NCBI GenBank assembly: GCA_009602725.1
Contig: WELB01000013.1
Coordinates: 353,855-398,539, forward strand
Source: Spirogloea muscicola
Lineage: Eukaryota; Streptophyta; Zygnematophyceae; Spirogloeales; Spirogloeaceae
DNA: 44,685 nt
Direction of reading: 5' to 3'
Shown: positions 17,720 through 43,499 of the stretch, piece by piece
Position numbering within the stretch: the stretch's first letter is position 1
How the letters are laid out: each line of letters opens with the position of its first letter
Program-made: the position numbers and the translations under genes
Notes under the pieces: model-generated
Seen by the model: only the letters and a program-made list of their open reading frames with translations
Databases searched by the model: none
What the model was told of the DNA's origin: nothing

Positions 17720-20483
17720 ATGGCACACTTTCTTCTTGCCGCTCTTGCTATCAACATCTTCATGACAACCATAGGTCCAAATGCAAAACATCTCTCACTA
17801 GCGAATGTTACAACTAGCATGCCTCCTGCTATCAAAATTCGTAATTGCCAACATTGGAGATCAGGCTCAGGCTGAGGCATGTGGTTGATGTCAAAGCAGC
17901 TGCAATGTAGACATTTGCTGTCAGCGGCAGCCCAACATATTGAAGCCGAAGACCTTAGCTCCAGCAGTGCACTGCTCAGTTGTTATGCTTCATGCACCTT
18001 ATGGTCCTTACTGTGTCAGACGCACGTACTTCATGGCTTGCAGGAGCACAATCACCTGTGGACATCACATCTCGAATACTGAGTCAGATAGGTGCTGCTG
18101 AATCAGCTCTCACAAGCTTTGTCACCCTCTCCATACCTGTGGCAGACTGCCAGGTGTGCCCGAGTTGCTGCGCAGTGTGTAGCCTCACGCGAGCTCTGCA
18201 CTCTTATCTACGTTATTGATCTTATGCAGCTGTCGGAGGCTGGCTGCATGTCAGTACAAAATCTGCCTCTGTGGTCTGCATGCAGGAAGCTGTGCCTGCC
18301 ACCTTAGGGGATCTTGATCAGACAATCTCTTTCCTGAACATCAAGAGCATCGGCCATGCTTACCAAAGCCTGCTGGCTGCGCAAACGGAGGTGAGATCCT
18401 CAATGGCTTCACTTTACTTCACTAACTACCACTTTGTCAGAGCTGTGGAGAGCATCTGATGTACGCTAAGAAGCAAAAACTGGACCTCAAATGCAAAGGA
18501 GGAGGCAAGCTAAGGAGACAACAAGGGCGCTCACTGCTTTGCAGACCCAGCTGTGTGCGAGCGCGCTCGCCGGCTTCCAGGGCCCCACTGCTGCATACGC
18601 CAGGTACTTCATCAACACGGCAGCTGTGGACATTGCCGGCGTCGCCAGCCTCCTGCCCCAGCTCGGGAGCGTTGTGCTGACCCCCAACCCACCGCCGCCG
18701 CCCATTCCTCCACCACTACCACCAATGCCTCCTCCCCCCCCTGGAACACTCCTGCCTCCTCCATCTCCGCCGCCTCCGCCGCTTCTGCTGCCTCCGCCGC
18801 CTCCGCAGCTTCCGCCGCCTCCGCCGCCGCTGCTTGTGTCGCCTCCACCAGGAGCTCCCCTGCCGCCCTCATCCCCAAGGCCCACGGGCCACCATAAGCC
18901 GCTCCCACCACCGTCGCCGCCACCTCCTCCCAGACCGCCTCCAAGGCCTCCTCCTCTGTCTCCACCGCCCCCCCCGAGCCCTCCGCCACTATTCCCGATC
19001 CTCCCTGCCACACCTCCGCCCCCACCAGATTGCCCTTTCCGAGCTCTGGGGGCAGGGCAGAACTTGGTCAAATGCGCCATGGGTTTTGCCACTGGCACTC
19101 GTGGTGGCTACCAAAAGACGAGATACGTGGTCACGGACCCCTCCGACAATGCTCAAACAGTCAAAGAAGGGACGCTGCGCTGGGGCATAGCTAATCTGGA
19201 TAAGGGAGTGTATATTACGTTCGCCAGGTCCATGACCATCACCCTCCAGGCAAGGCTGTTCCTCAGCTCGTACACCACCGTTGACGGAAGGGGGGCTAAG
19301 GTGGTGCTACTGAAGAATGGTCTTGTTGTGGAGAACATCCAGCATGTTATCATTCACAACATAGAGGTCGGAGACGTGCTCGGTGACAGTGATGTAATAC
19401 CAATCAGAAGCTCCAGGCAAGTACTATTGTCTTTGTCGACTTGCAGTGGAAGCGATGATTTATTGTGCTGGAAAATTAACGACTCACTATAATTTCTCCA
19501 AGCTGATGCGAGAGCAACTCAAGTTGGACATTGACATCAGGATGATGTTCCTGCAATCATAATGCAACTTCAGGATGGTCTGGGTGGACCACTGTCGCAT
19601 CTACAATGCATCCCGAGGTACCGTTGACGTCGTTATCGGCAGCACAGACGTGACTATCTCAAATAATTTCATCCACAACGGCGTCTCCCCGTATGCAACC
19701 CTTCTAGGAGCCTCGGACACGGTATGAGATGGTTTGATGCACTGTTTGTGTAGCCTTGACATGTGGATGGATGAAGTTCATCCATGTCCTATAGTCTTGG
19801 TCTTACATCGTACCACACCAATTCAGAAGCAAGGGGCAGCTGTCATCATTTTCAGCATTTGTTGACTCAGACAATATCGAGAGAGCTGTTTCATTGTGGT
19901 GCAGGACCGCATTGACAACAACCTAAGAGTAACTGTCTACAGAAATTGGTATGCCAACAACAACCAGCGGCAGCCCCACTGCCGGCGGGGCAGGTGCCAT
20001 GTTGCCAATAACGTGTACACCAATTGGGCTTACTATTGCCTTGGTGGCCGTGTGTTTGCAAATATGAAGTCCCAAAGCAACATATACTTTGCTGGTGAGC
20101 TACTTGCTCGAGACTTGCCTTATGCATGGGCTCCATGTTCTAGATTGGAGCTCTTCAAGCCCATAAGTATGCAACCTACCTCCAACGCCCTTGTGAATCT
20201 AGACATCAGGTAGTGACTGCTTACAGACATTTTGTTGCCTGTTGGCTACTGCGCAGGGCCCGTTACGAAGGAAGTGACGCCGTGGTTCAGTAAAGCCCTC
20301 ACCACGCCCGGGTTTGACCGCACCGCCACCATTCTCTCCTTTGGTGACCTACTCCTTAATGGGGCCACCTTCCACCAGTTTCCGGGAACTACGTTTACAA
20401 CGCCTTACCAGCTTCCCCTTCATGTTGCGGACTACACGCTCCTCAAATTTGTCATGATAAATGTCGGTCCTCATACAAGCTAA
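17720..20483 (+). CDS. Secreted pectate lyase (polysaccharide lyase family 1) with N-terminal domain and proline-rich linker
   Basis: Pectate lyases cleave polygalacturonate by beta-elimination outside the cell (family knowledge). Seven exons join in frame: 17720-17774, 18044-18153, 18286-18390, 18545-19416, 19574-19721, 19905-20094 and 20257-20483, giving 568 aa. The first exon encodes a signal-peptide-like start, MAHFLLAALAINIFMTTIG. An uncharacterised region of about 130 residues follows. Next comes a linker of about 105 residues made of PPPP/PPSP/PLPP runs (18680-19035), like hydroxyproline-rich wall glycoproteins of green algae. The lyase domain contains TLRWGI, TVDGRGAKVVL, VWVDHCRIYNASRGTVDVV, DVTISNN, LGASDT and QRQPHCRRGRCHVANNVY, whose R-x-P-x-x-R fits the catalytic arginine motif. 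The intron after 19416 uses a GC donor (AG|GCAAGT). The phase 1 join from the signal exon to 18044 is the reason for choosing ATG 17720. Confidence 0.85.
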
Positions 20484-21339: not shown

Positions 21340-21905
21340 CTTTTGTCTATGTGCCTACAGCGGTCCCAGGCGATTGCTCTGCATCGCCGGGCTCGTCGCG
21401 CCCTTGCAGCAGCCTCTGGCTTGCGCAGCGGGGTTGTTCTTCCTCCCCCGAGGGATAGTTTGGGGATAGTTTCCCGGCAGCTAGTCTGTCGGGAAACTAT
21501 CCCCAGCAGCCCTAAACCCGGCAGCTAGTCTGTCGGATGTGAAGCTCCTCACTCGTAACTACTAAGCGGTCCATCCTCCCCCGTTCTGCGCTAGCCTCTT
21601 CAGGCCCCGCAGTCGCTGCTTAGCTCGTAATTTGGCCCCTTCGAACCTTGTCAATTCTTTTCGGGCTGGCTTCTCACAGCCCTTGCCCCCATTGGGAGAG
21701 CCACTTCTTCTTTCTAGTCTGTCGTATTTGCGGCTCCTCACTCGTAACTCCTGAGTGGTTCATCCTCCCCCGTTCTGCCATAGCCTCTTCAGGCCCCGAA
21801 GTCGCTGCTTAGCTCGTAGTTTGGCCCCTACGAACCTTGTCAATTCTTTTTGGGCTGGCTTCTCACAGCCCTTGCCCCCATTGGGAGAGCCACTTCTTTC
21901 TCCCC
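21340..21905 (+). mobile_element. RLE-type retrotransposon 3' end followed by two tandem 3' tails
   Basis: A remnant of the C-terminal peptide (ALHRRARRALAAASGLRSG) at 21370-21440 is followed by the element's 3' flank. The flank reads CGGCAGCTAGTCTGTCGGAT, CTCCTCACTCGTAACT, CATCCTCCCCCGTTCTG, CTCTTCAGGCCCCG, CGAACCTTGTCAATTC, and the hairpin GGGCTGGCTTCTCACAGCCC (21663-21682). The whole flank is then repeated from about 21716, with a second hairpin at 21852-21871. The second tail has no coding part. It could come from tandem insertion, template jumping or duplication; the sequence does not decide between them. Confidence 0.8.
21462..21504. repeat. Perfect 15-bp inverted repeat
   Basis: GGGGATAGTTTCCCG (21462-21476) pairs perfectly with CGGGAAACTATCCCC (21490-21504) around a 13-base loop, GCAGCTAGTCTGT. 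The loop and left arm match the retrotransposon flank that elsewhere reads GGGGATAGTTTCCCGGCAGC (23631-23650). The right arm is an inverted piece of the same flank, so this copy is rearranged. Confidence 0.9.
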
Positions 21906-22554
21906 TCAGCTCATCTGACTTCCCTCCTGTAGACACGGGGGTACTAAGGGCCGATTTACACCGGGACGGACGGAGGGACGGAGGGGTACGTGTCGCGCAG
22001 TGTATGGAACGCCCGGCTTCACAACCTTGCGCGCCCGGACGCGGACGCGCGCCACGGAGGCGCCACATTGGCCGCTGACTAGGACGCCTCTTGCCCCCGT
22101 TTAGGACGAAACGGCTCTGTTTGCCACGAGGGCGGACGGAACTGGGCCCTCCTCTCGAGGAGGGCCGACCCCCGCCGCCCGCGTCCACCCCCTTCGGCCT
22201 GCCCGATAATGGACAGCACCCTCCCAAATGTAAGGTACACCGCCCTACACACGCAGTTAGGGTGAGCAGTCCTTGAGTTCGGCTTTAGGGACCAACCCAC
22301 TACACAGGCAAAGCACTAGCGCATAGGCGCAGCGGAAGACAGACCCCGTGGCGCCGCCGTCCGGCGGCGACTCCACCTTCTGGGCGCAGGCCGGCGCAGC
22401 AGGCCCCGCAGCAGAGTGCGGCGGCGGCTGCGGCGGCGAGCAGCGGCAAGGCTGCTCCTGGGCTTCACCGGTTCGAACTCCTTCGAGCCTCAGCCCCAAG
22501 GCTCTTCGTGCTTCCCCCGTGCCACCCCCCCTCCAGGGGTGTGAGCGGGTCGCC

Positions 22555-22620
22555 CCAAGGCCTGCCCTTGCGGCGGGCCCAAGGTCTGCCCTTGCGGCGG
22601 GCCCAAGGTCCCTCCTTGGC
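22555..22620. repeat. 24-bp tandem repeat, about 2.7 copies, inside element A
   Basis: CCAAGGCCTGCCCTTGCGGC-GGGC (22555-22578) is repeated with one change at 22579-22602, followed by a partial copy, CCAAGGTCCCTCCTTGG. It is GC-rich and open in several frames, so short ORFs here are not evidence of genes. Confidence 0.85.
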
Positions 22621-22709
22621 AGGGTGGAACCTGGCGAGGGTTAGTCCAGGACGGGCGGGAGTTGCTCGCACCTGGGCGGCCCACTTGTCCATCAAGCGGC
22701 TAGCGGTCA

Positions 22710-22830
22710 TGTAACGCTAACAGCACCGTGTGGCATAACCAAACGGCTGGATCGTTACATACCTCCCCACTCTGGTGTTCACGTCCTCGGGAACAACGAG
22801 AGAACAGCCGACAGGTTTTACGCCCGACGG
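22710..22830 (-). mobile_element. Possible LTR-retrotransposon 3' end fragment (minus strand)
   Basis: Reading the minus strand, a purine tract AGAGTGGGGAGG is followed by TATGTAACG. A similar layout occurs where a Ty3/Gypsy polypurine tract meets TGTAA-starting LTRs. TGTAACG and CGTTACA bound a 50-bp segment (22710-22759). There is no gag, pol or full-length LTR, so this may be a fragment or a coincidence. Confidence 0.3.
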
Positions 22831-23089
22831 ATGCGGCCTCGACCAAGCCTAGGGATTTATCACCCCACCCTTGGCCAAGTGTTCCAAAAGTGCAGGCGGA
22901 AAATGTGCCAGATTGGCCGCAGGCTGCACGTGTGCTCAGGCCCATACCCGAGCCACTTCACCAGACTCGTGGGTCTTGGATGAGGTGGTTTTTACGCCGC
23001 AGCGAGAGCAACCATTCCCCTCCATAGCTGGCTTCTCCAAGCCTCTCATGGGACGGATGTTCAGCCCTCGGGCCGAAACTCCTCCGGGT

Positions 23090-23780
23090 CCCTCTCTGCG
23101 TCAGCAGATACTCCCGCCTCAAGCAGGTAGCGCTTGCCCAATACACAGTTGCGATGGAGAATACGTCTGTCATGCCCATCCTCCAGAGGGCCGACGGACT
23201 CCACACGCGCCGCGTCGACCTGGTGGCGTCCACGACGGGCGGCGGCGGGCGCATCATTGCCGATGTGGTCACCACTGATGTGGTCGACCGCTCCAACCCG
23301 GGGCTTTCTGCCTCGCGGGCTGGCCACGCTGCGGCGAAAGCCGCTCGCAGCAAGGCGGCCAAACACGCCGACCACCCGGCTGCTGATGAGTTCGTCCCCC
23401 TGGCTGTGGACGTGCACGGGGCTCTCGGATCCCACTGGCTCGACCTGTTGGCCAAGCTTGCACGGCGCGCTGTGTCCCGCAGGCGCGGTGAGCCGGCTGA
23501 CTTCAACGCCGCTGGCTCGTGGGCTCAGGTGTATCGTATGCGCTTGTCCGTCTCCCTCCAGCGGTCCATGGCCCACGCCTTGCATCTGCGTGCTGGCCGT
23601 GCTCTCGCTGCGGCCTCCAGCTTTCGTCAGGGGGATAGTTTCCCGGCAGCTAGTCTGTCGGATGTGAGGCTCCTCACTCGTAATTACGGAGTGGTCCATC
23701 CTCCCCCGTTCTGCCATAGCCTCTTCAGGCCCCGAAGTCGCTGCTTAGCTCGTACTTTGGCCCCTTCGAACCTTGTCAAT
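23090..23780 (+). mobile_element. RLE-type non-LTR retrotransposon, truncated copy inserted in element A
   Basis: An ORF from 23154 encodes the C-terminal endonuclease-like region: LQRADGLHTRRVDLVAST, then ADVVTTDVVDRSN, an Ala/Lys-rich helix, FVPLAVDVHGALGSHWLDLL and YRMRLSVSLQRSMAHALHL. This layout, R-x-D then D-V-V-x-T-D followed by a VPLAV-x-x-G-x-x-G motif, is common at the C-termini of algal and fungal-like reverse transcriptases. The reverse transcriptase domain itself is absent. The 3' flank stops at CCTTGTCAAT (about 23780), just before the usual tail hairpin. There the element A reading frame resumes, so the copy lacks both ends. Confidence 0.75.
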
Positions 23781-24198
23781 ACACTTGGATAAGTGTTCAG
23801 CACCTTCCTGGCGTGCTCCACCAGCTGGGGCAAGTTGGCAAGGGCTGCGAAGTTGCGGACTCCACCGCCCCACTTTCGCATCGGCTCGGACAGCCCAGCC
23901 TCAAATCGCTGCCACTGATTGACAGCCTTCATAGGCTCGTTGCGCAGCTTAGAGACCAGCAGCCTCAATTGCCGCACTTGGTCCGAAAAGTCTCTGCGCA
24001 TACGAATAGCATCAGCTCATTACGAGCCTTCAGCTCCCCATAAATCTCACCACACACCTTGGTGAGCGAGCTCGAGAAGCACTTCCAGGTGTTGCACACC
24101 TCTGGCATGGAGGTCTTCTTCATGGAGTCCCACCACAGGGATCTCCCTCGAGATAAGTGGCAGCTAGCGGCAGTCTTGCCGTCCCCTCCCCAATACAC
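23781..24198 (-). pseudogene. Minus-strand coding remnant of element A
   Basis: Two overlapping minus-strand frames give protein-like sequence: YWGGDGKTAASCHLSRGRS and WDSMKKTSMPEVCNTWKCFS, then RRDFSDQVRQLRLLVSKLRN and AVNQWQRFEAGLSEPMRKWG. The reading breaks at 23781 where the retrotransposon is inserted. Position inside element A suggests a protein of the transposon, possibly the accessory DNA-binding type, but I do not recognise a domain. A frameshift separates the two parts. Confidence 0.4.
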
Positions 24199-24323
24199 GA
24201 GGTTTCAAATACGGTTCTGCACGCGCAGGCGGCCTCGGCCTCCGTGGTCCGCGTCCACCCCCGTGACAGAGCGTCCCGGACGCCAGGCGTCCGTCCGTCC
24301 GTCCCGGTGTTGATCGGCCCTAA

Positions 24324-24747
24324 GGGCCGGGTTACACTGGGGCGGGGTCGGCTGCCGCCGAGGGCACGTGTCGCGCGTTGTACGGAATGACCGCCGTAAA
24401 CTGGCCCGCGCCCGGTCGTGGTCGCACGCCACGAAGGCGCCACATCGGTCGCTGACCAGGACGCCATTACACGGGCGCGTTGATGGAAGAAACGCGCGCG
24501 TTTGCCACGCTGGCGGCCGGAATCCAGACCACCTCCCGAGGTGGTCTGGATTTCAACCAAGCCCCCCCCCCCCAATCCCCGGCCCCCGCCCGAAACGGGA
24601 CAGCTGGCACTAGCCCCTCCAAATAGACGAAAATTCCAAATACCATTCCGCACGTGCAGGCGACCTCGGCCTCCGTGGCAGCGACCAACGCTTGACCCAG
24701 CGGTCAAAAACGATTTTGGCCGACCGACCCGGTGTGTGACCCGGCCC
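24324..24747. mobile_element. 424-bp TIR element B, non-autonomous relative of element A
   Basis: The left end GGGCCGGGTTACACTGGGGC and right end GTGTGTGACCCGGCCC (24732-24747) are imperfect inverted repeats. The flanks are TAA on the left, shared with element A, and TAG on the right. Both subterminal regions are homologous to element A. On the left, CGTGTCGCGC and GGCGCCACAT-GGTCGCTGAC match 21989-22085. On the right, CGACCTCGGCCTCCGTGG matches 24225-24245. An inverted repeat with two 15-base arms lies at 24521-24552. It has no coding capacity and looks like an internally deleted, MITE-like derivative. Confidence 0.75.
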
Positions 24748-24750
24748 TAG

Positions 24751-25900
24751 TCTGCCTAGCCTGTTGCTCCGTCATGAACACCTGTGTGCATCTCGCTGGA
24801 TTTTTACAGCCGGTTTTTAGTATCAGCAGCCGCTTTATATGCAGCTTCGTTTGACGTCGTGGGTGCTTGAACCCAAACCCCGCCCCGGTCCCTCCGCCCC
24901 TTGGCGGCGGCGGCGGGCGGAGGTCCTCGCGGCGCAGGGCGGCCTTCGCGGCGGTGGGCAGGCGACGCCGCCACCACGGCGGGGGCCGCCAGCTGGGGAT
25001 ACCGGTGAGGCCGGCCACGCCCAGCCCGCCGGCAGCGTCTGCGCCATCAAGTGGTACGTGGATTGAGGAAGAAGCACTCACGTCGCCGTGAACCTTGTCT
25101 CGCCCCAAGCGAGACGAGCGCCCGCCCCCGTGCGGCGACGGCGCCCTTGTCCCCGCGTCTCCGTTGCGGGCGTCGTCGGGATGACCGCTTCTAAACGAGG
25201 CGACGGCGGCGGCGGCGGGGCGAGCCCGGTGATGTCTTACAACAAATAAACTGCCGAGACCGGCCGGGGGGGCCCTCCCCTCGCGGCGCTGAGGACTGAT
25301 CGATAGGCCTGAGGGCTCACGCCGCCGTCTGCGCCACCGCCGCCGCCGCCGCCGTCGTCAGCCCCATGGCCGCCGCACTCCTCACCCGCACCATGTGGGT
25401 TCTCGGCGGCCTTGCAATGGGAAGCAAGGCTGTCAAGCAGACCCTGACTGGTCGTCCTGTTGGTGGTTCCTGCTGCTGCCGCTGCCGTCGCCGCCACAGC
25501 CGCCGGCCTGTGATGACAAGACACACCTTATCTACATTTTCTGACCCCTGAAGATCAACTCCGAGACCTGAGCTGAGGCCGAGTGACCCGCGACCAGCAG
25601 GCGGCGGCGGCGGCCATGGGCCGGTCCAGTCTCGGTCATGCTCTCGGTTCTGGTCGTGCTCGGGTCCAGGGTTTTGGCTGCACCACTAGCAAGCCTGCTG
25701 GTCAGCGGGCTTGCTTAAACCCAAGCTCTCAGACCCCAGCTGTCGATATTGCCAGGTAGCTTCGTCAGTGCAGTCCCCTTGTTGATGAGCTGCCTGTGTG
25801 GTGGGGCCGGGCTGTGACGAACCCACGCTCATGGCAGCGAAGATGCGAGAGGGTGCAACTGTGCGTCCGCTGATCCGCTCTATAAAACCAATGGATCCTT
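24751..25900. other. GC-rich region without a supported gene
   Basis: Between 24880 and 25640 the sequence is GC-rich with GGCGGC and CCGCCG runs near 24905, 25206, 25340 and 25600. Long open frames exist on both strands but overlap each other, are rich in Ala, Gly, Arg and Pro, and show no family motif. An ATG at 25368 (+, 61 codons) and one at 25524 (-, 95 codons) are the best alternatives, but neither is convincing. Confidence 0.4.
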
Positions 25901-31700: not shown

Positions 31701-32996
31701 AACCATAGTTCAGCACGTATATGAAGCATACCGTGAGAGACACGCCACCAAGGCCTCTGTGATTAGTGACGAGGACTTGCCAGCCGAGTTGAAGAAGACC
31801 TTTAACTGTTTGCAGGATATACTGCGAAGTAAGTTGCATCACGCCATGCCAGGGAAAGTGGTCTCTCTCAGCTCAGCATAAGTAGAAAGGCAAGCGCTCT
31901 GTAGCTTAATAGCAAAAGAAGCGCGCAAGGATTCACTGTGGGTGATAACTCACCCCACTCTGGGAGTCACTTGTCAGGCCAGGAACAAGAACAACCACAG
32001 GTGTTCTATCGGAGCCTGCATGAAGTCCTTCCTTACCACCTGCTGGTGCATCAACTTCGATCTAATCAGCCTGGCAGCTAATGGCAATCCAAAGTTGGCA
32101 TCATCAGCTGCCTGCCCAGCTGGGCCTTGCAAGGGTTGGGAGACTGCCGACAGTACCTGGAGGGTCAGCCCAATCAAGAGCTAGCGTGCCACCATCAGGT
32201 GTTTTAAGCAACTCCCTGGTGTCATACAACAACAAGCATGTCAATTTGAATACATGAGAGCCCTCTGCACAAGTGGCCTTCTTCTCTTTACACGAGAAGG
32301 GGAGCTCCTCACCTCCGATAGTCAATACTAGGTGCGTGAACTGCAAAGTGTAAGAAGGCTGTCTGGAAGTGTGGGCTGCAGAGCCAAGGCGTCAACCAGA
32401 TCCTGAAGTGCAGGTGGAGAATCAGCAGGATATTAGGGACACAGACTATATGATGGATGCACAACGACCTCTGTAAGAATACAAGAAGGCCTTCTTGTAC
32501 ATCTAACCAACTCTTGAGACTGACTGCTTTAAAATGCGCAAGTATCTGCAGACCATGACAAATCTTAGGTGGCGTTCTTGCAGAACAATTTGGACTTGCT
32601 TGATTCTCTTTCAAGACTAGGCACCTGAGGTAGGTTAACTATCTACTTACTTTCTCTACGGCAAGACGCAACGAAGTGTGTCGATCCTTCGTGAGATGCA
32701 CAAGAGGCCATATGCGGCAAGTTGAGCTTGTAAATGTGGAGTTTCTCGCCGCTGACTTACTTCTTATACAGCTCAGAGCAGTGCGGTAGCACCGCTTTGG
32801 CGACGTGAGAGTCCGGGTGGTAGACGAGGCTGACTGAGTCACCGACGAAGAGCTGGCGAAGGAGGCGGAGGTCGAGCCAGCGGTAGAGGCTGATGGCGAG
32901 TAGCAGCAGAGCCAGCGTGACCGGGTCCCATAGCGTCGGCGCGGAGGCGGCAAGCAGGCCGCGAGGCTCTCCGATCTGGTGCGGCGCGGCAGCCAT
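28749..32996 (-). CDS. EMB8-like / ABHD1-3-like alpha/beta hydrolase, 481 aa
   Basis: Fourteen minus-strand exons join with GT-AG sites and continuous phase: 32996-32761, 32402-32313, 32215-32157, 32015-31954, 31821-31732, 31544-31422, 31238-31161, 30790-30705, 30407-30380, 30206-30150, 29889-29759, 29544-29461, 29230-29161 and 29000-28749. The N-terminus has a membrane segment (PVTLALLLLAISLY). Family landmarks in order are TPDGGTLALDW, VVVLVPGLTSDSQSG (oxyanion region), VTNHRGLGG, DTFYNAGWTEDLRCIINHV, nucleophile VAVGTSLGANIL, KYLGEEGSNTPLLAAATVGN, TIREFDDRITRICGNFE, acid CISALDDPIC and base TTQAGGHLAYLEG. So Ser, Asp and His are all present. Relatives include plant embryogenesis-associated EMB8, yeast Eht1/Eeb1-type acyltransferase/esterases and animal ABHD1/3 phospholipases. 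The substrate here is unknown. The first exon is GC-rich and the 28-nt exon 9 is unusually small. Confidence 0.9.
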
Positions 32997-35035: not shown

Positions 35036-35170
35036 CCCTTCTGTCAGGGGGATACTTTTCCGGCAGCTAGCTGTCGGATTTTAGGCTCCTCACTCGTAGC
35101 TACTGAGTGGTCCCTCCTCCCGTTCTGACATCGCATCTTCAGGCCATTTGGCCATTTGACCTTCATTTCT
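35036..35170 (+). mobile_element. RLE-type retrotransposon 3' flank fragment
   Basis: TCTGTCAGGGGGATAC, CCGGCAGCTAG, TTAGGCTCCTCACTCGTAGC, GAGTGGTCCCTCCTCCCG and CATCTTCAGGCC follow the same order as the 3' flank at 23625-23735. The coding part is missing except for the last few codons. Confidence 0.75.
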
Positions 35171-35642: not shown

Positions 35643-36353
35643 GTAACCCCTGCTAAACAGCCTCAGGGCAGAGAAGCTAGGCTCCTGGAAGTGGGTCCCC
35701 TGGCCAGAGCCAGAGGCAGCAGCGAGGGCTCTGCCGGCACGCAGGTGCAGCGCGCGGGCCATAGACCTCTGCAGCGAGACGGCCAAGCACATCCGGGTAC
35801 ACCTGCGCTAGCGACCCGGCTGCAGGAAAGTCCCCCGGCTCCCCATGGTTTCCCGCCGATGATCAGCGTACTTGAGCTACTTAGCTCGAGCGTCGCAGGC
35901 GACCGCATACCCAGCCTTGATGGCACATTGGGCTAAGTTTGAGCGGTCGTATGCGTCTGTGGTCACCACGTCCAGGATGAAACGTGGCCCGCCGGCTTGT
36001 GGGGTGGCCACAAGGTCTACGCGACGTGCGTGGAGACCGTCAGCCCTTTGCTGGAGCGGCATGACAGCGGAGTTCTCCGCTGCCACCGAGAAGCCAGCCT
36101 CCACCAGGATGCCATGCATCGCATCCCGGAGGCGGTCGTGGGCCGCTGTCCGCTCTCCGCCGTGGGAACAGCGCAAAACATGAGCGGCCAGCTCCCCAGG
36201 CTCGGCCCCTCGCTCGCCATATTCACACTGACGCACACCCTGGAGACATGGCGGCGGCAGGCCCAGGAGCCGGTGGACGGCACTGCGAAATATCTCGTCC
36301 GGGAGAGTGAGGGCGAGCCCGCTTCGATGGGTGTGACCCACCTTGACGAGCAA
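35643..36353 (-). mobile_element. RLE-type retrotransposon, truncated C-terminal copy (minus strand)
   Basis: This is the fullest copy of the zinc-knuckle plus endonuclease region. The minus strand from 36353 reads VHRLLGLPPPCLQGVRQCEY, then HVLRCSHGGERTAAHDRLRD (C-x-n-H-x4-C pattern). It continues with AMHGILVEAGFSVAAENSAV, LQQRADGLHARRVDLVATPQ and FILDVVTTDAYDRSNLAQCA. After a frame break near 35880 it reads AAASGSGQGTHFQEPSFSAL, then RLFSRGY-stop near 35643. That end matches the termini of the copies at 23.65 and 37.35 kb. The upstream reverse transcriptase domain is absent, which fits 5' truncation. Confidence 0.8.
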
Positions 36354-36410
36354 TGGCGGGTACCGGCAAGGCTAGCGGCGGGTAAAGGTAGGTAGTGGTA
36401 GAAATTACAG

Positions 36411-36464: not shown

Positions 36465-36939
36465 TGGGGTGCCAAAAGGCCAAATGGCCAGCTCCCCAAC
36501 CCAATGATTAAAATTAAAAATCAAAAAACAATGATAAGGGGTGCGGAGGGTCGGGGCCGAGCAGTCCACTCGGCGCCGTCTTTTGCTCTTGCCAGAACTG
36601 CCCCCAGCGCCGCCGCCGCCGCCGTATTGCCGTCGGGTGTCTTCGCTACTGTCGAGCCACGCCAGGAAGGCGTGGGCTCACAGGAAGGGCAGCCGCGCTG
36701 CTAAAAACAGCCTTACCTTGGGTGACTCCGCCGCCGGTCGCGTCCTTTACTAGACTATCTTTTCAGAAATGTTCCTATCTGCAGAAGTAGGAACACCTCA
36801 ATTTCGTGTGTTTACTTTTATTCACAATGTGTTGTGCCGCTTGTCTCGTTGACTCCAACATTTCACCTGAACTTTTGAATACTCTGTAATATCGACATTA
36901 TCTGGCACTCGGACGTTGTGTGGCGCGACACCCTCCGTT
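36465..36939. other. No supported gene
   Basis: A GC-rich core (36560-36730) is open in several frames with Ala/Pro/Arg-rich translations and no motif. An AT-richer stretch follows (36760-36900). Nothing else was recognised. Confidence 0.45.
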
Positions 36940-37445
36940 ATTTGGCCCCTTCGAACCTTTGTCAATTCTTTTCGGGCTGGCTTTTCACAGCCCTTGCCCC
37001 CACTGGGAGAGCCACTTCTTCAACATCAAGGCAGAGTAGCTCGCTGCAGGGAAAGAGGCACTCCGCCGAGACCCAGAGGCAGCAGCCAGCGTTGTGGATG
37101 GCTTAGGCCTTGGCATAGGCCTTAGCATAGGCCTTTATTTTATGTAGCCCCACTTTTTGTACTAGCTTTTGCTTGTTCAGTGCATTGGCCGGCTGGTTTA
37201 CCGGATGCGCCTGGCCGTCTCTTTGCAGCGGTCCCTAGCTTTTGCGGTCCACTTGCGCGCAGGCCGCGCTCTTGCGGCGGCCTCTGGCTTCCGTCAGGGC
37301 GACGTCTTTCCGCCTGCTAGCTACTCAGATTTGCATCTACTGACGAGAGGTTACTGAGAGTTCGCTTACTGCTGTCTCAGTCCTTAGCACTCCGACTCCT
37401 TCAGACCTTGTCCATTCTTTTGGGCTGGCCTCTCCCAGCCACCAG
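36940..37445 (+). mobile_element. RLE-type retrotransposon tail followed by a second truncated copy
   Basis: A 3' tail with CGAACCTTTGTCAATTC and the hairpin GGGCTGGCTTTTCACAGCCC lies at about 36951-37022. Then an ORF at 37169-37357 gives YRMRLAVSLQRSLAFAVHLR and AGRALAAASGFRQGDVFPPA, ending LLTRGY-stop, which is the C-terminus of the same family. It is followed by its own tail at 37405-37440 (GACCTTGTCCATTCTTTT, hairpin GGCTGGCCTCTCCCAGCC). This repeats the tail-to-body tandem layout seen near 21.5 kb. Confidence 0.75.
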
Positions 37446-40513: not shown

Positions 40514-43499
40514 ATGAACGAAAGGCCATCCTTCGATGTGCGAGTGGCGGACAAGGCTAGGTTAAGCTTTAGGCTAGGCGGCCACAGCGACGGCGCCGGC
40601 ACTGTGCTGCGAGTGCGGCGGGCGCCGCAGGCTGGCCCCAGCTGGAGGTTCACGGCGCTGGGAAGGCGGCGCTGGGAGGGCGGCCTGACGGCCATGACGC
40701 CGAGCCCGCCGTTGGCAGCGCCGCCACAAGCGCACCCGGCGGCGGTGGCAGCGTCCCTTGCTGCCCGGTGCGGCCTCCNCCTGGCGTCGGCCGCCCTCGC
40801 TGCCGATGCCGACGCCGGCGCTGCCGAGCCGTGCTGCGGCAGCGGGACCGTGCCGTGGCTGGCGCGCACGCCGGCGCTGGTCGCAGAGGTCATGCGGCTC
40901 ATTGCGGCGACGTCGGGTGGCGCCGCATCGGCTCCGCTGGGATCCGGTCGCAAGCAGGTGATGCAGAGCGGAGGCCTCTCCTCTTGCTCCACTCTAAGAT
41001 CAAAAAAGGTGGTTTTGCTTATCAAAACGCAGTTATCATGTCCAATGGTTGGACATTTCATTGCAATTGTGGTAATCATGGGTTTTTCTATCTTAGATAG
41101 ACAATCAACCCTCGACAGAACACACGCCAAGCCTACATAGAGCTGCAAAGCTGAAACCCTAGACGAGTGCAGTACACACTATATCCTGAAGGCCTGAAGA
41201 CTCCAAGGAAGCCAGTACCTTGGACCTTGTCTAATGCTCCAGCTGTTGCGAGCTTATCACAGTTGGCTCTGATAATCTTGGTCTTGGGGTCTATGATAGA
41301 CGAGTTCCCGCGAATCTCGTGTAACCGCAGCTCGCAAGTTTCTTCTTGGGCTGCACATAAGCAGTGAGCCGATAGCAAGAGTGCGGGTCGTCCAGAGGCC
41401 GCTTATCTTGATGACAATAAGTGAACATTTAGAGGAAGTAGGAGGAACTGGACACACATCGGCACACTAGTTAGGGGCAAAGAGTTGGGGGCCCCAACTT
41501 TGTGGAGGTTTGAGCATGCCCTCACCTGGAGTCGTGCCAATGCCAGGCTCACTTGCAGGAAAGGAGGCCTGAGGAGCAGTTCTGGGCGGAGTTTAGGCAC
41601 GCCAGCCCTGAGGAGAGGTTCAAGGCGTCGGTGGCGCTCCAGGTCGCCGTCCGCCTTCTCCATGCCTCACCACGTCTTTGTCGCGAGGTGGGTTCAGGCC
41701 TTCATTCCCAGCGCTCGTACATGGTTACTGCAATGGGCGATCTGTCAGGTCTTGGTCGACGAAGGATATCCTGAAGTATCTAGCAACTCAGTTGTTCTGA
41801 AGTATCTAGCAACTCAGTTGCTCAATAGCTCAGTGAGATGTTTATAGTCTACTTTTGGCACGTTCGTGTGGAAGTTTCATCCCCGTCTTGGGGGACTGCT
41901 GCAGCTCACTGGTTTTATTTGGTTGAGGCACCAAGTATCACAGGACGGCTGTGCCTTACTGACAATTTTGCGCCCTCCATAATTTTCACCAGCACAGTGC
42001 TGGCTGCCCATTGAAGACTGCCTCTGTTCCATTGTGCCAAGGGCGGAGCTGAGGCAAGGCATAACATTCTGGCTCTACATGCACCCGAAGGTCTGCCCAC
42101 TTACTGGAAAGGGTGTTAGGACGACTTGAACAGGCTTGCTGCTGCTCAAGTAGCCGTAGCTGATAGAGATCTATCGACTGCATGTTTTGCCCAGCAAACA
42201 GGTACTGGGGCTTCTGTGCTTTCGCTGTTGAGATTGGCACCTAGACTGGCATACAGTCATCCAGATCATCTGAGGTGTACAGGACTTTCTGAGGTCAAAC
42301 AACACTGGGAAGCTCCTACGGCAAGTGCTGGGAGAGCACGCTGCCAAGCTCTGCATATTTGGAGTGCAGGAGCACGAGGATGCTATGTGGGCTCAGTTAG
42401 CTGCTGCTGGTCGGTCTTCTTCACAAAGCTTCACAGTGTTGCTGTCCAGTGCACATTCACAGTTCCACGAAGTTAACTGTTCTTTAAACAGTAGGCTTTG
42501 TGAACTTTGTGGCTGGGAGGATAGTCAAAGGCTTCGACCACAATTACTGCCAGCACTGCATCAGCTGATCAAATTGTCATTGAAATCTGCAGGCAGAAAG
42601 TCGGTGTGGTGCTTGTATCCATTCCGGGGCTTTCAGAACTTGACGTCAGAGGCTCTGTTGCAAGGACATATTCCCCAGCACGGCCTATTGCAGGTTCTCA
42701 ACAGTGGCATGTTCTTGCTCTCACAATTGCACAGCTTGCAGAAAAATGTGTGATTGTGTATAGTGGCCCATTATCAGCCACTGAGCCTGTCATGCATGCA
42801 CTCAGGACGTTGACAAGACACAAGTGCCAGAGTGTAAGCTGTTGGCGCACTTCGTCCTGGTGGATGGGACCTGGAACAATTCAAATGCAATGATGAATCG
42901 ACTACAAGTGGGTCACCACTGCTGCCATACTACCCACTCTTTATGGTTGCAATTTATTGCTTGATGAGCATCATGCGACTTGGCTGGTCAAGCCCCTTGC
43001 CGTAAGCTGTCTGCCAATGCTCTGAGCAAGTCACCATCAGCATATACTTGAAGTAACCTTGTCATGTTGTTGCCATTGTTGGTACTTGATAGGAGCAAGC
43101 AAGGCAGGCTTTGGGTTGTGAGCTCGATTGCCTCTCAGTCAAACCCAAGGTCCACTCGGTGATGCACAATCTGAGGTAAGAATTATGACACATCACCAAA
43201 CTGATACTCACTTCAATAAATCCAGTTGCTGCCACTTATGCAAGACAGAGCGAAGCATGTATATGACAATAGAAGCGAAAGCCTTGTGTCTCTGATGCAG
43301 ACCACAGCCAACCAAAGAGCAACTGTGCACTGCGGCATCTGCTGTCAAGCTCCTAGAGGAGCTTGATGCTCTTCCGGGGCTCAGCTCCTTCGGCCTGGGC
43401 AAGTCAGCAAAGGCTCTGGACGAGGCGCTGGCCTGCCTGCAAGATAGGTTGTCAGCCAGGAGAGAACGGTACGGCAGCCCAGGTATCAGGCTAGCATGA
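40514..43499 (+). CDS. DTW-domain tRNA-uridine aminocarboxypropyltransferase
   Basis: DTW enzymes transfer the aminocarboxypropyl group of SAM to uridine in tRNA (acp3U). Eight exons close in frame: 40514-40957, 41559-41687, 41998-42112, 42326-42409, 42593-42693, 42833-42907, 43093-43175 and 43301-43499. The diagnostic N-terminal cysteines are formed across the second junction: LCRE joined to CWLPIEDCLCSIVP gives C-x2-C-x2-P-x3-C-x-C. Then come FWLYMHPKVCPLTGK, LCIFGVQEHEDAMW, VWCLYPFRGFQNL, the catalytic-motif exon LLAHFVLVDGTWNNSNAM, KPKVHSVMHNLR and TKEQLCTAASAVKLLEEL. The start is uncertain: ATG 40514 gives 409 aa, while ATG 40694 gives 349 aa with an Ala-rich, targeting-like N-terminus. 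One base (40779) is unresolved (N) and hides a residue. The first exon is GC-rich. Confidence 0.8.
41771..41822 (+). repeat. 26-bp near-perfect tandem duplication in a DTW gene intron
   Basis: CTGAAGTATCTAGCAACTCA-GTTGTT (41771-41796) is repeated at 41797-41822 with one change (GTTGCT). It lies in the intron between exons 41559-41687 and 41998-42112. Confidence 0.9.

Follow-up and report, generated by a model that had tools for sequence, protein, structure and literature searches.

Paired changes in a palindrome at the same position of two related TIR elements of Spirogloea muscicola

PIF/Harbinger-type MITEs, for example the Tourist-like elements, are short, lack a recognised coding gene, and have GGGCC-type TIR ends and 3-bp TAA flanks. 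To our knowledge, an internal perfect hairpin is not among their defining features. Helitrons carry a short palindrome in which pairing is kept while the sequence is free to change, but they have no TIRs, and the hairpin lies close to the 3' end. Paired change within a stem is classically read as a result of selection.

A mutational route to the same pattern is given in the available sections of PMC8794818. Template switching is described there as capable of creating perfect stems and multi-base compensatory changes in one event. When the switch takes place within a palindrome, one arm is copied anew from its partner, giving double changes without selection. In the rRNA data of these sections, a 4-nt loop was enriched among instantaneous compensatory changes (56.01% versus 42.13%), while 94.7% of compensatory changes were isolated and uninformative; the part played by template switching in maintaining short stems is said to be less clear. 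A limited search of the literature, covering partial texts, found no MITE hairpin with compensatory change, which is not proof of absence.

The window analyzed here is the whole 44,685-nt stretch of DNA. It contains two abutting elements, A and B, as follows.

21948..24320, + strand: element A, 2373 bp, TIR GGGCCGATTTACACCGGGACGG..., defined by inverted arms and by its located ends and flanks
24324..24747, + strand: element B, 424 bp, TIR GGGCCGGGTTACAC..., defined by inverted arms and by homology to A at both ends
22036..22061, + strand: subterminal motif of A, GGACGCG..CCACGGAGGC, with an inverted copy at 24238-24263 near the right end of A

An inverted-repeat search placed the TIR arms of A at 21944-21980 and 24288-24324 (37 nt, 89% complementary) and those of B at 24323-24352 and 24719-24748 (30 nt, 77% complementary), both in keeping with PIF/Harbinger TIRs. 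The subterminal motif of A and its inverted copy are 81% complementary over 26 nt. TAA is found on each side of A (21945-21947 and 24321-24323). B has TAA on its left, the same TAA that forms the right flank of A, and TAG on its right. Because A and B abut with this single TAA in common, a 3-bp TWA target duplication (TAA/TAA for A, TAA/TAG for B) is partly confounded. In blastn alignments the left ends of the two elements matched over 232 columns with 73.7% identity and the right ends over 144 columns with 72.2% identity, with about 2 kb of A being extra relative to B.

These alignments indicate that A and B are two diverged, related TIR elements with a common ancestor. Their ends and TAA flanks are of a kind that we take to resemble PIF/Harbinger elements, and they share with the MITEs of that type the short element without a recognised coding gene. 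They differ in that no transposase partner was seen and in the TAG at the right flank of B. Most likely they are ordinary, PIF/Harbinger-like and non-autonomous, and inherited their internal hairpin. Membership of the Helitrons was rejected, as TIRs are present and the hairpin lies about 200 bp in from the left end.

The extra interior of A was compared with protein families. Five of its open frames had no match in Pfam, nor had one of them in NCBIfam, and a transposase was not found there. One frame has a relative elsewhere in the window.

23028..23792, + strand: open frame (stop to stop) in A, kin to the frame at 35877-36371 (- strand)

These two frames are 67% identical over 54 aa. The frame in A matched neither Pfam nor NCBIfam, and the frame at 35877-36371 had no match among solved structures. 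The frame in A is probably a retroelement fragment inserted there. A dispersed repeat at 21525-21898, 23642-23780, 35039-35145 and 36933-37021 (pieces 83-94% alike by blastn) is present as two tandem copies immediately left of A and as one copy in A that overlaps the end of the retroelement-like frame; it is probably a retroelement 3' region. Of ten frames of the window compared with Pfam, three matched (FAD_binding_5, ZT_dimer and, below the cut-off, Peptidase_S9). The long proline-rich open frame at 18470-19492 had no Pfam match; it presumably resembles cell-wall proteins of green algae.

Further copies of the elements were sought. Self-blastn of the window (E 1e-5) detected no third copy. 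The left-TIR pattern, with up to 3 mismatches allowed, matched twice in the window, at the left ends of A and B only; it misses the right ends of both, so decayed ends could be missed. In viral contigs, DNA-pattern scans gave one match (L001), whose blastn comparison with the window yielded nothing at E 0.01 or better, and 21 stretches matched the pattern of the 35877-36371 (-) protein, none being confirmed by tblastn. Six bacterial records matched in the scan of genome contigs. When 21901-24800 was aligned by blastn to these six records and L001, seven alignments were obtained, which are read as chance because they are short (at most 59 columns) and the best E was 0.008. B had no match in the plasmid collection. 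As the collections searched consist of viral, prokaryote and plasmid records, the absence of further copies from them says little.

The hairpin under study lies about 200 bp from the left end of both elements.

22145..22166, no strand assigned: palindrome of A, 10-bp arms, TC centre
24521..24552, no strand assigned: palindrome of B, 15-bp arms, CC centre, centred 1 bp off the midpoint of the element
22119..22141, + strand: conserved stretch to the left of the A hairpin, GTTTGCCACG..GGCGG.CGGAA, from the A/B alignment
24500..24522, + strand: conserved stretch to the left of the B hairpin, with its final AA within the stem, from the alignment and the pair table

A preliminary description had reported both palindromes and put them at the same place in the two elements. 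The coordinates, arm lengths (10 and 15 bp) and centres (TC and CC) were all borne out. The palindromes lie at homologous positions within an ungapped stretch of the A/B alignment. Folded as single-stranded DNA, A forms 9 pairs closed by the loop CTCG and B forms 14 pairs closed by CCCG, both loops being of 4 nt.

In dinucleotide shuffles (2000 for each element, loops up to 4), an arm of at least 10 was reached by 0.45% of shuffles of the left 354 bases of A (21947-22300) and 0.5% of shuffles of B, and an arm of 15 by none of either set. A chance origin has in its favor the GC-rich region and the choice of the feature by eye from 44.7 kb of sequence. Chance is nonetheless very improbable, given these frequencies and the homologous place of both palindromes.

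With the pairs numbered from the centre outward, A and B have the same bases at pairs 1-4, 6, 7 and 9, while at pairs 5 (T-A/A-T), 8 (C-G/A-T) and 10 (G-C/A-T) both bases have changed and still pair. The two centres have one base in common. The earlier statement that only the innermost CTC/GAG is shared was therefore too narrow, with 7/10 pairs identical; its other half, that the differing bases still pair, is right for pairs 5, 8 and 10. Further out, pair 12 differs on both sides and pairs in each element. In the stem of A, positions 11 and 13-15 do not pair, while 12 and 16-18 do. The stem of B is paired through 15, or through 17 if a G-T wobble at 16 is allowed.

A separate origin of each palindrome, at a fragile or recombination-prone site within the element, is improbable. 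Their stem lengths and outer sequences differ and their right flanks are poorly alike, as such an origin would allow, but shared ancestry is simpler because 7 of the 10 inner pairs and one centre base are the same within an ungapped stretch.

The flanks of the hairpin have diverged at 61 of 198 columns (31%), with 15 differences in the nearest 45 columns; the wider A/B alignment, stem included, has 70 mismatches in 289. The chance that both stems are perfect with at least three double changes was calculated for a perfect ancestral 10-bp stem whose arms drift independently under simple equal rates. At 31% divergence P was about 1.6e-6, and a simulation of 2 million gave 1e-6; at 15% and 35% divergence the values were 0.5e-6 to 1.2e-6. 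Given three differences per arm, the chance that they coincide and are complementary is 1/3240. These values are optimistic, since the feature was picked by eye and the probabilities were computed after the fact. They mean that the focal arms are not independent. The co-variation of the focal hairpin between A and B is real, and its homology, position and paired changes are direct observations. The preliminary description went on to read the compensatory change as a sign of selection, a step that does not follow from two copies.

Selection on the hairpin while the element was mobile is the main rival, and a possible one. The hairpin would be recognized as a cruciform or single-strand hairpin in transposition or replication, or would act as a hairpin of the transcript. 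In its favor, the inner ten pairs hold three paired and no single-sided changes at 31% flank divergence, and 15-bp arms were absent from 2000 shuffles. Against this, the case rests on two copies and the outer stem of A is broken at 11 and 13-15. In addition, known cut-and-paste transposases act at element ends, about 200 bp away from the focal hairpin.

The specificity of the pattern also speaks for selection. Perfect hairpins (arms of at least 5, loops 2-12) were listed 12 times in the aligned block, 6 from A and 6 from B. The focal palindrome, which appears in both sets, kept 10/10 and 11/15 pairs, with 3 and 4 double changes. Nine of the other ten had no double change; the tenth, at 24475-24497, had one, with 3/7 pairs kept. 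Among the 12 listings, several double changes with pairing kept are thus confined to the focal hairpin. The listing at 24475-24497 belongs to another short hairpin, present close to the focal hairpin in both elements (GCGCGTT/AACGCGC in B; CCGTTT/AAACGG at 22097-22114 in A). Compared column by column, it keeps 3/7 pairs with one double change from B to A and 1/6 from A to B, with alignment gaps just before it. Beside the focal palindrome, B has a 14-bp perfect palindrome, AAACGCGCGCGTTT (24490-24503), where A has AAAC/GTTT plus a G-T wobble; it is absent from the listing because loops under 2 were filtered out. RNAalifold predicted five pairs in AAACGCGCGCGTTT, four of them invariant and one changed one-sidedly.

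The wider fold gives selection a mixed account. RNAalifold predicted 69 pairs from the two sequences, of which 11 are double-changed (4 in the extended focal stem, 7 elsewhere). The seven would favor selection, but the prediction was fitted to the same two sequences that it scores. As a whole, B has a stronger fold than its shuffled versions (z -5.79 as RNA and -7.21 as DNA), a second point in favor; the TIRs and the palindrome help to explain this strong fold. The left part of A folds no better than shuffles (z -1.08; 31 of 200 shuffles equal or better). At gathering score, Rfam covariance models had no match in the whole window, and membership of a structured RNA family was rejected. Relaxed searching of 21900-24800 gave five weak matches (E 0.21-4.8), all below gathering score. 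Two of the models, for microRNA precursors, touch the palindromes at E 3.6 and 4.8, far below gathering. A wider conserved RNA fold was likewise not supported, the RNAalifold pairs being fitted and the hairpin-by-hairpin count showing several double changes with pairing kept in the focal hairpin only. On balance, the two sequences contain nothing convincing to suggest a larger structured RNA.

Two other structural readings were set aside. In the first, the whole element folds back with the palindrome as its apex; the halves of B beyond the first 35 bases align only somewhat above shuffles (score 26 versus a mean of 19.6, with 16 of 500 mononucleotide shuffles reaching 26). The location of the palindrome 1 bp from the midpoint of B may be chance. 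In the second, the CTGA...GAAAC stretch is hammerhead-like, for which there was no Rfam support.

The most likely cause of the paired changes is an ordinary one, homogenization of the palindrome arms by template switching, which we hold with evenly balanced confidence. The common ancestor of A and B would have carried a hairpin about 200 bp from its left end with the core CCTC-YC-GAGG. The palindrome would fold during replication or repair, and one arm would be recopied from the other by template switching or quasipalindrome correction, so that the arms stay perfect. Substitutions in a single arm would in this way become paired 'compensatory' changes without selection on structure. The left arm may have been the template in B. 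Across positions 14-23, A and B agree at 9 of 10 places on the left side and at 2 of 10 on the right. The right side of B matches the AA that is common to the left sides at 14-15, as left-to-right copying gives; decay in A is the alternative.

Arm-to-arm copying was compared with the wider pattern of change. Over positions 1-17, the left arms of A and B differ at 6/17 and the right arms at 8/17. The arms differ about as much as the flank, so the stem has not been slowed, contrary to the expectation for paired selection. Stem lengths are unequal, with 10 pairs in A and 15-17 in B. The window has 5 places with perfect arms of at least 10 (loops up to 10), whereas 100 shuffles in 1-kb blocks averaged 0.5 and never exceeded 4. 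Three of them are outside A and B, a number reached window-wide by 3 of the 100 block shuffles.

2091-2121: perfect palindrome outside A and B, arms 15
32480-32499: perfect palindrome outside A and B, arms 10
43345-43366: perfect palindrome outside A and B, arms 10

These three extra palindromes point to a general process. Unequal stems, near-background arm divergence and the extra palindromes all fit homogenization. The background-rate arms and the broken outer stem of A lean toward a mutational cause, without amounting to proof, and each feature cited for arm-to-arm copying could come from selection too. With two unpolarized copies and no outgroup, changes are not placed on branches, no single event is shown and no feature is decisive.

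As far as the available parts of PMC8794818 and PMC8604942 go, the locus shares with quasipalindrome correction and template-switch mutation the paired multi-base changes, stem extension, homogenized arms and 4-nt loop. The same parts of PMC8794818 treat RNA genes with reconstructed ancestors, whereas here two unpolarized transposon copies are compared.

Paired stem changes are commonly taken as proof of a selected structure. Copies of mobile elements are largely neutral after insertion and are a good place to measure palindrome perfection that results from mutation only. Should this family prove to have many copies, mutational and selective causes could be told apart from them directly. A family of TIR elements might use a DNA hairpin in its interior for transposition or copying. 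The hairpin would be set by its pairing and not by its sequence, and every lineage would have a co-evolved stem of its own around the constant core CCTC-YC-GAGG; we consider this unlikely.

One further inverted repeat is located to the left of A, at 21461-21505. Its 20-nt arms are 95% complementary and separated by 5 nt, TGGGGATAGTTTCCCGGCAG.
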